Part shown: one piece after another, positions 108 to 4,192 of the stretch | How positions within the stretch are numbered: the first letter of the stretch is position 1 | How the letters are laid out: the number at the start of each line of letters is the position of its first letter | NCBI RefSeq assembly: GCF_013141425.1 | Contig: NZ_JABFRA010000103.1 | Coordinates: 1 to 40,395, forward strand | DNA length: 40,395 nucleotides | Direction of reading: 5' to 3' | From: Methylotenera sp. | GTDB taxonomy: Bacteria; Pseudomonadota; Gammaproteobacteria; Burkholderiales; Methylophilaceae | The notes under the pieces: model-generated | Told to the model about the DNA's origin: nothing | Seen by the model: only the letters and a program-made list of their open reading frames with translations | Database searches by the model: none | Translations under genes and position numbers: made by a program

Positions 108-192
108 GCGAGAGTGGCGGAATTGGTAGACGCACTGGATTTAGGTTCCAGCGCCGTAAGGCGTGAGAGTTCGAGTCTCTCCTTTCGCACCA
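108..192 (+). tRNA. tRNA-Leu (anticodon UAG)
   Basis: The gene folds as a class II tRNA with a long variable arm. The 7-bp acceptor stem pairs GCGAGAG (108-114) with CTTTCGC (182-188), followed by discriminator A and an encoded CCA (190-192). The anticodon stem CTGGA/TCCAG encloses loop TTTAGGT, giving anticodon TAG, which reads CUA and other CUN leucine codons. The T arm contains GTTCGAGTC. No convincing T-run terminator follows; only a 9-bp AT-rich hairpin at 251-271 is seen downstream. Confidence 0.97.
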
Positions 193-640: not shown

Positions 641-1045
641 ATGATTGAAGCTGAAGTAAAGATGTTGCTGGTAGAAGACAATGAAGATTTCAGAGGGCGG
701 GTAAGTTATCTGTTGCGTGAAAGATTTTCTTCAATGCAAATTTCCGAGGTGGGGACTTGCTCCGACGCACTTAAAATAATGAACGACCACACACAAAACT
801 TAATCTTTATGGATATTAATCTTCCGGACGGTATGGGGTTGGATCTTACCAAGACGATAACTGAAAAATTTTCCGATTCAGTCGTAGTTATTCTGTCCGT
901 CAACGACATGCCCGAGTATCGTGAAGCTTCATTCAATTGTGGCGCTAGTCATTTTTTCAGCAAAGGTAACTTTTCTTTTCAAGAAGTTGTCGGATTTATT
1001 GAAGACTTTCTTTCTGGCAAAGTTCGCCGGAATAAATTACACTAA
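641..1045 (+). CDS. Stand-alone response-regulator receiver (REC) protein
   Basis: This is a 134-residue single-domain receiver with no output domain. The phosphorylation site is intact: acidic pair E12/D13 (LLVEDNED), phosphoacceptor D58 (LIFMDINLPDG), switch residue S86 (VVILSVND) and conserved K108 (FFSKG). Single-domain receivers act through protein contacts or as phosphate shuttles or sinks rather than binding DNA. The ATG at 641 is preceded by a G-rich stretch GGGGCGGGG that can serve as ribosome-binding site; an in-frame ATG at 662 is the alternative. The next gene is a histidine kinase 113 bp downstream on the same strand, and a NarL-type regulator follows, so this protein probably belongs to the same signalling pathway. 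The partner and the signal cannot be named. Confidence 0.88.
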   Translation: MIEAEVKMLLVEDNEDFRGRVSYLLRERFSSMQISEVGTCSDALKIMNDHTQNLIFMDINLPDGMGLDLTKTITEKFSDSVVVILSVNDMPEYREASFNCGASHFFSKGNFSFQEVVGFIEDFLSGKVRRNKLH

Positions 1046-1158: not shown

Positions 1159-3351
1159 ATGACAGTTTTAGGTGACTACCGAGTGACAAAGTCCAGCGCA
1201 ATTCGAACGGTGCAAAAGGTGAAATCTGAGTGGGAATCGACTGTTGATTCAGTTGCAGAACTCATTTTCATTGTCCGCAAAGATGGCGTTATTCTGCGTG
1301 CCAACAGAACCATTGAACAATGGGGGTTGGGTGACGTAGAAAACGTGAAAGGTAGGTCTTTACATGAACTGTTGCACCCGTCATGCAATGCTAAGAAGTG
1401 TGATTTAAAAAAGCTTTTAGGCTTGTCTGATAAAGTATTGGCTACGGGTGAAACGCTTGAGTATCGTGGTTTTGATTTACTGTTAAATCGAAATCTATTA
1501 ATCCAGTTAATCCCGATTAGTGTTGATGAAATTCATACGTCTGGACACATGGCGATTATATTTCGTGACATTAGTCAATTAAACTTATCTGGCAGTCATT
1601 TGACCAGTAAATCTAATTGGACTTCACTTAAGGCAAACAATGTAGGATCTAGCGCTGATCCCAATAATTCCGCCAGCCTAGATGCTGAACGACAGTCACT
1701 TGCTAGCCCCGAGCTTAATTTTAAATTTATAGAGAAGATAAAGCGTGAGTGGGAGTCTGCTGTTGATTCATTGCCGCAAATTATCTGCTTGGTGAACGGA
1801 GCGGGTACTGTTGTTCGAGTTAATCGTGCTATTGAACATTGGAAACTGGGCGATGTTACTTTGGCGAGTGGACGCAATCTTCATGAGATTCTACACAAAA
1901 GTTGTAAAGATAAAGATTGTTATCTGAATAGTTTAAATCAACAAATTGCTAGTGTGTTAGCTAAGGGGCAAGTTGCTGAGTGTCAGAAGCAAGATGTTGT
2001 ATTAAATAAGCATTTGCATTTTCAAATCAATGCATTCTCCTCTAAACATTCACCTCAAAGCGGTTTGGCTGTTGTCAATATAACTGATATTACCGATATC
2101 AGGCATGTGGAGCTTGAAATTGGCTGCTTGAATACAAAGCTTGAGAAGCGCATAAAGTCGAGAAATTTGAATCTTCAGAAAATTAATTTGAAGCTCAAGC
2201 AAGAGATTGAGTTACGCAAACAGGCTGAGGCTAAATTTAAGGACAGTCGCCAGAAATTCACGCATTTGGTGGAGATGATGAATGAAGGTATGGTGATTCA
2301 GGATTTGGATCAAAAAATAAGTTACGCTAATCGGCACTTACTCAAGATTCTCGGTTTACCTCGAACAGAAGTGGTCGGGCGAAAATTCACCGATTTTGTT
2401 GATGTTGATTACATTGATTCTTGGGTGAGTGGTGGGCTAAAGAACTCTAAAAGTGTCGAGAGTTCTTATGTATTTAAGATGAAAGGCAAGGCTGGTAAAG
2501 CTTTGTGGGTTAAGGGTGCTCCGCAGCCTTTGCTTGATGCCGATAAAAATTGTGTTGGTAGCTATGCGGTAATTACCGACATTAATGACCAAATAGAAAT
2601 TGAGCAAAAATTACTCAGAACCGAGATAAAGCTGCGCTCACTTGCCAAACAGGTGCTTTTTGCGCAGGAACTTGAGCGCAAACGCATTGCCTCTGAATTG
2701 CATGACGGTATCGGTCAAACCTTAAGTGCAATTAAGTTCTACGTAGAAAATAATATTCGAGATCTAACAGAAACGCCCGCTTTGTCTGCGTCTGAACAAT
2801 TTGCCTCGGTAATTCCGAAATTACAAGGCGCTATCGAGGAAGTACGAAGAATCTCTATGGATTTGCGACCGTCACTGCTCGATGATATTGGCGTTTTGGC
2901 AACACTCAGTTGGTTTTGTCGTGAGGCAAAACAGGCAAGCCCGCATGTTGATTTCAGCTTTGATAAAACCAATGTCAATGAACTTGATATTATTGCCAGC
3001 CTTAAAACGGAGATCTTTCGTATTGTGCAAGAGGCCGTTAATAACGCCACGAAATACAGCCGAGCCAAACATATCAATATCTCGATAAAAGATGCCAATA
3101 AATCGATACATTTAGAAGTATGTGATGATGGTATTGGTTTTGACTATACGAAAGTAGCAAGTCAGCAAGGGTATAGTGAGTCAAAAGGGATGGGCCTTGT
3201 CAGCATGCGAGAGCGTGTAGAGAACTCCGGTGGCGAATTCTCTGTCAGTAGTGCGCCGAATGCTGGTACTAAAGTCATTTGCATCTGGCCGAAAGAAAAG
3301 CGTGCTTTCATCGACAATCGTTCAGGTCGGCGTGATAGACGTGGTCGATAA
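1159..3351 (+). CDS. Soluble PAS-PAS-PAS HisKA_3 sensor histidine kinase
   Basis: This is a 730-residue NarX/LiaS-class kinase without membrane segments or a signal peptide, so it should sense a cytoplasmic signal. Domain order: PAS-like copy 1 (about 20-140), PAS-like copy 2 (about 193-320), a coiled coil (about 325-370), a classical PAS (about 370-480), HisKA_3 with phospho-acceptor H515 (ELHDGIGQTLS), and a HATPase with N-box N628/N629 and G1 box D657-G658-I659-G660. Copies 1 and 2 align without gaps at an offset of 173 residues (W25/W198, H73/H246). Both carry H-x2-C-x4-C: H73, C76, C81 and H246, C249, C254. The ATG at 1159 directly follows an in-frame TGA, so it is the earliest start, but no good Shine-Dalgarno is visible. 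The NarL-type regulator at 3536 is the obvious phosphotransfer partner. Confidence 0.92.
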   Translation: MTVLGDYRVTKSSAIRTVQKVKSEWESTVDSVAELIFIVRKDGVILRANRTIEQWGLGDVENVKGRSLHELLHPSCNAKKCDLKKLLGLSDKVLATGETLEYRGFDLLLNRNLLIQLIPISVDEIHTSGHMAIIFRDISQLNLSGSHLTSKSNWTSLKANNVGSSADPNNSASLDAERQSLASPELNFKFIEKIKREWESAVDSLPQIICLVNGAGTVVRVNRAIEHWKLGDVTLASGRNLHEILHKSCKDKDCYLNSLNQQIASVLAKGQVAECQKQDVVLNKHLHFQINAFSSKHSPQSGLAVVNITDITDIRHVELEIGCLNTKLEKRIKSRNLNLQKINLKLKQEIELRKQAEAKFKDSRQKFTHLVEMMNEGMVIQDLDQKISYANRHLLKILGLPRTEVVGRKFTDFVDVDYIDSWVSGGLKNSKSVESSYVFKMKGKAGKALWVKGAPQPLLDADKNCVGSYAVITDINDQIEIEQKLLRTEIKLRSLAKQVLFAQELERKRIASELHDGIGQTLSAIKFYVENNIRDLTETPALSASEQFASVIPKLQGAIEEVRRISMDLRPSLLDDIGVLATLSWFCREAKQASPHVDFSFDKTNVNELDIIASLKTEIFRIVQEAVNNATKYSRAKHINISIKDANKSIHLEVCDDGIGFDYTKVASQQGYSESKGMGLVSMRERVENSGGEFSVSSAPNAGTKVICIWPKEKRAFIDNRSGRRDRRGR

Positions 3352-3535: not shown

Positions 3536-4192
3536 ATGGAAATAAAATACCGAATATTGATTGTTGAAGACCACACTTTGTTGCGTGATGGATTAACTAC
3601 CATTATTGCTTCTGACCCGAATATGGAAGTAATCGGCGGTGTGGATAATGGCCTGGATGCGGTAAGGCAGGCCGTTGCACTGAAACCTGATTTAATCTTG
3701 ATGGACATTAATATGCCTGTCATGAATGGCACAGAAGCACTAATAGACATTAAAAGAAGAGAGCCGGGCATCAAAGTGATGATGCTGACGGCACATAAAG
3801 CCGAAGAGTATATACGTGATTGCCTGCATGCGGGCGCCGATGGGTATGTGCTCAAACATGCCACTCGTGAAGAATTGATGCTGGCAATTAACAAAGTGCT
3901 GAATGGCAAAAGCTACTTATCACCAGAAGTTTCCGAACAGATTGTAAGTGGTTATATGGGAGGAGCAAATGCATCCTCGCCTTCAGCGTGGGAAACGCTG
4001 GCAAAACGAGAGCGTGAAGTTCTGAAACTGGTAGCAGAAGGTAACACGAATAAGATGATTTCTTCATTAATGTGTATCAGTGTCAAAACCGTAGAAAAGC
4101 ACCGAGCAAATCTGATGAAAAAACTTAATCTACGCAACTCTGCGGCTCTCACGGCCTTTGCGATTGAAAAAGGTTTATTGGCTAACGTTTGA
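3536..4192 (+). CDS. NarL/FixJ-family response regulator (REC + LuxR-type HTH)
   Basis: This 218-residue transcription regulator pairs an N-terminal receiver with a GerE/LuxR helix-turn-helix. Receiver landmarks are E11/D12, phosphoacceptor D57 (LILMDINMP), T85 (VMMLTAH) and K107 (GYVLKHA). The HTH spans about residues 150-213 and has the family signature (LAKREREVLKLVAEGNTNK, then ISVKTVEKHRANLMKKL). Regulators of this type pair with HisKA_3 kinases such as the one ending 184 bp upstream, so phosphorylation by that kinase is the natural inference. The next gene downstream on the same strand encodes an outer-membrane protein whose upstream region holds a direct repeat, making it a candidate target. 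The regulated genes are otherwise unknown. Confidence 0.94.
   Translation: MEIKYRILIVEDHTLLRDGLTTIIASDPNMEVIGGVDNGLDAVRQAVALKPDLILMDINMPVMNGTEALIDIKRREPGIKVMMLTAHKAEEYIRDCLHAGADGYVLKHATREELMLAINKVLNGKSYLSPEVSEQIVSGYMGGANASSPSAWETLAKREREVLKLVAEGNTNKMISSLMCISVKTVEKHRANLMKKLNLRNSAALTAFAIEKGLLANV

Follow-up and report, generated by a model that had tools for sequence, protein, structure and literature searches.

Several described sensor domains offer points of comparison for the kinase reported here. NreB is an oxygen-sensing kinase that combines PAS with HisKA_3, works with a NarL-type partner and relies on Cys for its cofactor, a [4Fe-4S] cluster held by four Cys residues in the PAS domain. Heme-binding PAS domains (FixL, Aer2) place the axial His on F-alpha or E-alpha, and FAD-binding ones (NifL, MmoS, Aer) have a conserved Trp on F-alpha. 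The cytoplasmic PAS domain of WalK from Staphylococcus aureus binds Zn(II) through His271, Asp274, His364 and Glu368, and the ion restrains the kinase (PMC6624279). The CZB domain uses three His and one Cys, and oxidation of the Cys alters the output (PMC8846402). More broadly, 163 PAS clusters of at least 100 sequences have been reported, and in more than 100 of these clusters the cavity has conserved residues to which a cofactor or ligand might bind (PMC10468136).

The kinase is encoded in the window, i.e. the whole stretch of DNA that was analysed, which is 40,395 nt long and constitutes one entire contig of a source assembly of 2.48 Mb in 142 contigs. The 730-residue protein is a HisKA_3 sensor kinase of the NarX/UhpB type, with a HisKA_3 plus HATPase_c core (Table 1; other loci are numbered L, genomes G). 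The PAS fold was recognised by Pfam (PAS_4, E = 1.1e-16), and the Pfam scan marked three PAS stretches and no membrane domain in the protein. The first two PAS domains, named hereafter PAS1 and PAS2, carry a His/Cys motif and belong to what we call the Cys-PAS subfamily. The NarL/LuxR-type regulator 3' of the kinase gene is its probable partner, and NarL/LuxR-like regulators adjoin several other Cys-PAS kinases (L022, L030, L033, L035, L036, L041, L043). A homologue of the CheY-like regulator occupies the same position in L004 (phmmer E = 2.7e-39). Like NreB, the window kinase joins PAS to HisKA_3 beside a NarL-type regulator, but its candidate ligands are two Cys and two His rather than four Cys. 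WalK resembles it in having a PAS domain in a histidine kinase, with four zinc ligands to set against four candidate ligands here, although, on the published description, the WalK ligands lie far apart and include no Cys, whereas the Cys-PAS candidates include two Cys and fall within 13 residues. The CZB domain could share a Zn-thiolate redox logic with Cys-PAS, but is a helical bundle with three His and one Cys and not a PAS domain.

Table 1. Coordinates of the features in the window and at the related loci
Feature	Location	Coordinates	Strand	Basis
tRNA-Leu	Window	108-192		
Single-domain (CheY-like) response regulator, 5' of kinase	Window	641..1045	+	Pfam Response_reg
Sensor histidine kinase, 730 residues (Cys-PAS1, Cys-PAS2, ordinary PAS, HisKA_3, HATPase_c)	Window	1159..3351	+	ORF, translation, Pfam
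Cys-PAS domain 1 (residues 15-142)	Window	1201..1584	+	Half-versus-half alignment, alignment with relatives
Motif 1, H69-x3-H73-x2-C76-x4-C81	Window	1363..1401	+	Sequence, conserved columns
Cys-PAS domain 2 (residues 188-315)	Window	1720..2103	+	Alignments, AlphaFold model (mean pLDDT 88)
Motif 2, H242-x3-H246-x2-C249-x4-C254	Window	1882..1920	+	Sequence, conserved columns
Third PAS domain, ordinary, without motif (residues 367-476)	Window	2257..2586	+	Pfam PAS and PAS_9
HisKA_3 dimerisation and phospho-acceptor domain (residues 506-573)	Window	2674..2877	+	Pfam PF07730, E 7.8e-13
HATPase_c domain (residues 618-713)	Window	3010..3297	+	Pfam PF02518, E 2.3e-15
NarL/LuxR-type response regulator	Window	3536..4192	+	Pfam Response_reg and GerE
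Recurrent SLT-kinase-Gsp order	L036	3-6209		
Recurrent SLT-kinase-Gsp order	L041	3588-9543		
Recurrent SLT-kinase-Gsp order	L042	3673-9552		
Recurrent SLT-kinase-Gsp order	L043	2730-9776		
Recurrent SLT-kinase-Gsp order	L015	4299-10309		
Recurrent SLT-kinase-Gsp order	L039	4101-10066		
Receiver-T2SSE ATPase	L020	3455-5335		
Receiver-T2SSE ATPase	L027	8913-10379		
Receiver-T2SSE ATPase	L031	7902-9752		
Csp1-family copper storage protein	L016	7250-7699	-	TIGR04401, 163 bits (cut-off 100)
Cys loop with C-A-R-P-D repeat	L042	4992-5423		
Cys-PAS domain	G876, contig C84	11073-11477		

A sequence-only reading of this DNA had proposed two related PAS-like domains in tandem, each with an H-x2-C-x4-C motif, and the pair is real: residues ~15-142 and ~188-315 align without a gap at an offset of 173, each copy with the motif, and W25/W198, H73/H246, C76/C249 and C81/C254 all stand where that reading had put them. 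Between residues 21-81 and 194-254, 32 of 61 positions are identical without a gap, and over residues 16-95 the identity of PAS1 to PAS2 is 38/80, again gapless; a local alignment of the two halves scored 240, the maximum in 1000 shuffles being 56. The third PAS domain is close to neither copy (scores of 28 and 34 against PAS1 and PAS2; shuffle mean 30). Among the domains extracted, the tandem arrangement was seen only in four Methylophilaceae kinases (the window, L004, L015 and L039), all other proteins extracted having a single Cys-PAS domain. In the tree all first copies form one clade (support 100/98) and all second copies another (99/98), the two joining at 94/90, and two rows, L039_22 and L039_196, sit on long branches. 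Judged from these alignments and the tree, the tandem pair is one old internal duplication. The four site residues are kept in all eight domains of the four kinases.

The motif as originally written occurs in both copies, but the true unit is larger, H-x3-H-x2-C-x4-C within 13 residues, with an extra conserved His (H69/H242) four residues upstream of the motif His. In the first five aligned domains H55, E56, H59, C62 and C67 (domain numbering) were invariant, which are H69, E70, H73, C76 and C81 of the window protein; in the wider domain set E70 was lost as a conserved position. The selective retention of Cys and His had earlier been read from the two copies. These alone would not single out the Cys and His, since the general subfamily signature (W-E-x3-D, N-R-x2-E-x-W and a G) is likewise kept in both; it is the homologues that do so.

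The set of homologues used for this comparison comprised 61 domains, i.e. the 78 domains found, minus 22 left out, plus five added from a later search. Those left out were 16 members of a sibling subfamily (see below), three weak or other PAS domains (L055, L118, L121) and three diverged or partial rows, of which L050 carries the motif, L045 has H69 and a Cys pair without H73, and L046 is without the motif (L045, L046, L050). Three pairs within the set are more than 80% identical, and the search profile includes the motif, so that domains without it are under-sampled. All four residues are present in 52 domains, and the site is frequently missing as a block: five domains have none of the four, two have H73 alone, and the remaining two have H69, H73 and C81 without C76 (L027) or H73 and C81 (L106). 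H69 is missing in eight domains, and C76 is missing in all eight of these. The co-occurrence counts are 52/1/0/8 for H69 and C76 (Fisher 3.1e-9) and 53/0/1/7 for H69 and C81 (Fisher 1.8e-8), kinship being ignored in both. H73 is coupled less tightly, being kept in 3 of the 8 domains without H69; an HP at the place of H73-P74 is common in ordinary PAS domains. With relatedness counted, the joint loss of the four residues as read from the sequences is only suggestive. That is, 3-6 changes per residue were reconstructed on two poorly supported trees, with 1-3 independent pairs on supported branches and none in the opposite direction; the independent pairs are too few for the co-loss to be significant.

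The remainder of the domain mostly stays when the site goes. Twenty columns have one residue in at least 85% of the 52 intact domains, 16 of them outside the site, and 15 of these 16 are retained in 6-9 of the nine deviant domains (nine columns in all nine). The deviants retain the consensus at H69 once, at H73 four times, at C76 never and at C81 twice, and at P74, inside the motif, in 3/9. As the deviants were picked for a missing site residue, the case for co-loss is carried by the pairwise counts and not by these column counts. Among the intact domains the Cys pair is spaced C-x4-C in 48 and C-x2-C, C-x3-C and C-x5-C in one each, and one shifted form, H-x3-H-x3-C-x3-C, was seen; variation in the spacing with both Cys kept is as expected for ligands in a loop. 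The string H-x2-C-x4-C occurs in 48 of the 61 real domains and in 26 of 12,200 shuffled ones, and it was not found outside the domains in the 26,468 residues of the 57 frames that hold the set.

Other Cys residues behave differently. PAS1 has only C76 and C81, and PAS2 has two more, C210 and C275. The C210 position is Cys in 39/52 intact and 7/9 deviant domains and the C275 position in 11/52 and 1/9, so that Cys there is not tied to an intact site and C210 and C275 do not track it. Hence an NreB-type set of four Cys is absent, from PAS1 by number and from PAS2 because C210 and C275 are not part of the conserved site. Free variation of the Cys and His positions among homologues, set beforehand as the outcome that would count against a sensor site, is not what was found. 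Instead, conservation across the aligned sequences suggests that H69, H73, C76 and C81 make up one four-residue site.

An AlphaFold model of PAS2, built on a 34-row alignment, had a mean pLDDT of 88 and a pTM of 0.79. The model puts H55 within helix 54-58, with H59 directly following that helix; C62 is in a loop and C67 immediately precedes helix 68-82, so that the predicted motif is contained in one helix-loop-helix of a confident PAS fold. This place, from a short helix to the following long helix, we take to be the E-alpha/F-alpha region of PAS domains. A prediction placing these residues far apart and exposed had also been set beforehand as an outcome against a sensor site; on this the model gives a coarse check, at the level of helices and loop. 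The top matches to the model by Foldseek and VIA-align were ordinary PAS domains (Z up to 13.2). No PDB chain matched the subfamily profile at E ≤ 0.001, and the window protein alone gave three weak PDB matches (best E = 0.037). DvhD (9rc0, second by Z) was considered as a precedent for a metal-binding PAS domain, and none was found in the consulted part of its paper. An FAD site was ranked low. The conserved Trp of FAD-binding PAS domains is on F-alpha; W55 is conserved in Cys-PAS and lies ahead of the motif and outside helix 68-82 of the model.

We lean, with moderate confidence and on the pattern of conservation, towards a switch in which two His and two Cys would hold a single metal ion in each domain, Zn(II) or Fe(II), at an N2S2 site through which the kinase would be controlled. 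The bound metal would pin the loop and the start of F-alpha. If the metal were lost, or if oxidants or species of the NO type oxidised the thiolates, the loop would be freed, this being the presumed direction of switching, and the freed loop would alter the PAS dimer and the coiled-coil exit helix and thereby autophosphorylation of the HisKA_3 kinase. The phosphate would then pass to the neighbouring NarL-type and/or CheY-like regulator, a pairing that we infer. The sequence-only reading had left a metal, heme, Fe-S or thiol-redox site side by side; the conserved His/Cys site is borne out, with H-x3-H-x2-C-x4-C rather than H-x2-C-x4-C as its unit, and this larger unit, together with its tendency to go as a block, favours a mononuclear metal site over heme, an Fe-S cluster or a bare thiol pair. 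WalK, with its zinc-binding PAS domain, and CZB, with its zinc-thiolate chemistry, serve as precedents.

A metal-free thiol switch appears unlikely, but is the alternative that fares best. Here C76 and C81 would form a reversible disulfide (or carry a persulfide or S-nitrosothiol), while the His residues tune the thiols or pack the helix. A Cys pair that tolerates spacings from x2 to x5 fits a disulfide, and thiol-type sensing is reported for EvgS (a 'redox switch') and Bacillus NreB. A pure disulfide would not, however, require the behaviour of H69, which is gone in 8/9 deviants and never with C76 kept. We consider an Fe-S site improbable, be it a [2Fe-2S] cluster on the two Cys and two His of each domain or a cluster shared between tandem or dimeric domains. 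Rieske-like clusters do use two Cys and two His, and groundwater (L029, L042) or a UASB reactor (L017) is mentioned in some record titles, both being settings where oxygen can be scarce; on the other hand four ligands in 13 residues are tight for a two-iron cluster, and as most proteins extracted are single-copy, a cluster shared by PAS1 and PAS2 cannot be general. Improbable to about the same degree, in our estimation, is a zinc that only stabilises the loop, the actual signal being a small molecule inside the cavity. Conserved Cys2His2 sets in loops are often structural, and N49, R50, W55 and D106, whose conservation is close to that of the motif, could form the lining of a ligand pocket, but the site is dispensable and site-less domains retain most of the signature. 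A heme sensor of the FixL or Aer2 kind, with one His (or Cys) as axial ligand of a heme inside the PAS cavity, is highly improbable: PAS hemes do use a His on F-alpha or E-alpha, the same region (PMC10468136), but one ligand suffices for heme, which leaves four residues that tend to stay or go together unexplained, and the Cys pair is at the loop in the PAS2 model.

Relatives were collected by a contig scan whose patterns were built around W-E-x3-D-S and N-R-x2-E-x-W, the motif itself being excluded. This motif-blind scan returned 32 loci, chiefly from Chloroflexota and Pseudomonadota, 25 of which have the exact H-x2-C-x4-C (L016 being read through its copy L004); the loci without it are L027, L036, L038, L040, L044, L045 and L046. 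An alignment of 39 domains shows W25 conserved in 37 of them, H69, H73 and C81 each in 35, and C76 in 33. Profile searches were positive in at least 4/399 genomes of the host's order (first profile, E ≤ 1e-8) and at least 4/187 of its family (1e-10), and elsewhere in at least 5/274 genomes of the class of G478, 2/247 of the phylum of G470 and 2/4 of the phylum of G466 (each at 1e-18), and at least 5/25 of the order of G473 (1e-20). In the class of G479 at 1e-6 at least 62/298 genomes were positive, many of the weak matches being the sibling family. All these counts include seed genomes where they belong to the group searched, and the larger searches scored the best candidates per genome and so give lower bounds. 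G876, from the same family as the window genome, has the domain in the same place as the Methylotenera genome of L015. The distribution of the subfamily is wide and patchy. L020, a Micrarchaeota record, clusters with Chloroflexi rows in the tree, and its contig has probably been mis-binned.

Domain scans of 20 relatives show Cys-PAS attached to HisKA_3 kinases, to HisKA and hybrid kinases and, in L017, to a response regulator-GGDEF protein; it is therefore a module not tied to a single protein family. Two genome bins hold several paralogous copies, both site-bearing and site-less: in G473 the site is intact in L024 and not in L044, L106 and L110, and in G484 it is intact in L063, L103 and L107 and not in L038 and L111. 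In one gammaproteobacterial member (L042) the Cys loop has grown as a short C-A-R-P-D repeat, giving extra Cys.

As to known families, Cys-PAS shares its fold and its place in the kinase with PAS_4 (PF08448), a model that finds matches in the window and in many of the scanned relatives, but it has its own signature, W-E-x3-D...N-R-x2-E-x-W...H-x3-H-x2-C-x4-C. In 5 of the 20 relatives (L017, L028, L029, L036, L041) no PAS family reached 1e-5, and no dedicated Pfam or NCBIfam model for Cys-PAS matched. The NO-related kinase NahK, whose NCBIfam model NF041831 touched PAS2, was set aside; the window match is weak (E = 7.1e-6), and the best matches of the genome to that model, at profile positions 474-714, are in other proteins. 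The sibling subfamily (L093-L101, L112-L117, L120) reads G-x2-C-[YFWC]-x3-H...C-P-H. It resembles Cys-PAS in its W-[EQ]-x3-[DN]...N start, in having Cys/His in the same loop and in weak matches to the same profile, but its first Cys is one residue ahead of the H69 column and H-x3-H-x2-C-x4-C occurs in none of its 16 members. Both Cys are present in 16/16, the His in 14/16 and C-P-H in 11/16. The sibling profile matched 56 PDB sequences, mostly PAS proteins by name, and the sibling motif was absent from the four alignments inspected of these 56. The sibling subfamily may represent another class of metal or redox PAS domains.

The gene neighbourhood was compared in the ten Pseudomonadota among the 32 loci, most with 4-5 kb on each side (L015, L016, L029, L035, L036, L037, L039, L041, L042, L043). 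Six of them have homologues of GspF and GspE no more than about 2 kb away (L015, L036, L039, L041, L042, L043), and an SLT lytic transglycosylase is upstream in six (L015, L016, L036, L039, L042, L043), Pfam supporting parts of this neighbourhood in L036, L041, L042 and L043. Neither Gsp nor SLT genes were found in the flanks of L029 and L037, and L035 has a weak GspG-like match only. The recurrent order is SLT, Cys-PAS kinase, (GspG), GspF, GspE; as exceptions, the Gsp genes of L036 lie on the opposite side, no SLT was seen in L041 and no GspG in L015 and L039. A divergent NarL-type regulator accompanies these genes in L036, L041 and L043. The Cys-PAS kinase resembles a resident regulator of type II secretion or pseudopilus genes. 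An SLT gene also precedes the kinase of L005, which has the same core but no Cys-PAS. The window kinase has no GspF-GspE or SLT context nearby, and the four closest GspG-F-E clusters of its genome are on different contigs, where the stretches read contain neither SLT nor this kinase.

In L020, L027 and L031, T2SSE plus MshEN ATPases with an N-terminal receiver domain lie within 3 kb downstream of Cys-PAS kinases, for which direct phospho-control of the filament motor is possible. Beside the tandem kinase of L016 there is a gene for a Csp1-family four-helix copper storage protein; with no Csp1 in the ORF lists of L015 and L039 or in the first 6 kb of the window, a copper-storage link was judged incidental.

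The earlier suggestion of an under-described family, rather than something unique, agrees with a His/Cys site kept in 52 of 61 domains across a dispersed and apparently undescribed PAS subfamily. In the literature searched by titles and abstract beginnings no description of this motif was recognised, and the subfamily may lie inside one of the 163 PAS clusters noted above. Tentatively, and with some doubt, Cys-PAS can be read as a separate PAS sensor class, a one-loop His2Cys2 metal or redox switch that, in many Pseudomonadota, would reside in a lytic transglycosylase-kinase-type II secretion cluster as its regulator. Possibly, at the same tentative strength, this class would span Chloroflexota, Pseudomonadota, candidate division KSB3 and a deltaproteobacterial lineage, and serve kinases as well as a c-di-GMP cyclase. 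Few sensors are as common in bacteria as PAS domains, and for many of these no cofactor is known. A four-residue site that tends to be kept or lost as a block offers a direct, testable cofactor hypothesis for a whole subfamily, in which the natural members that lack the site can serve as controls. A link to type II secretion genes would hint at what the signal controls and, if the separate-class reading is true, cytoplasmic metal or redox state would set secretion.
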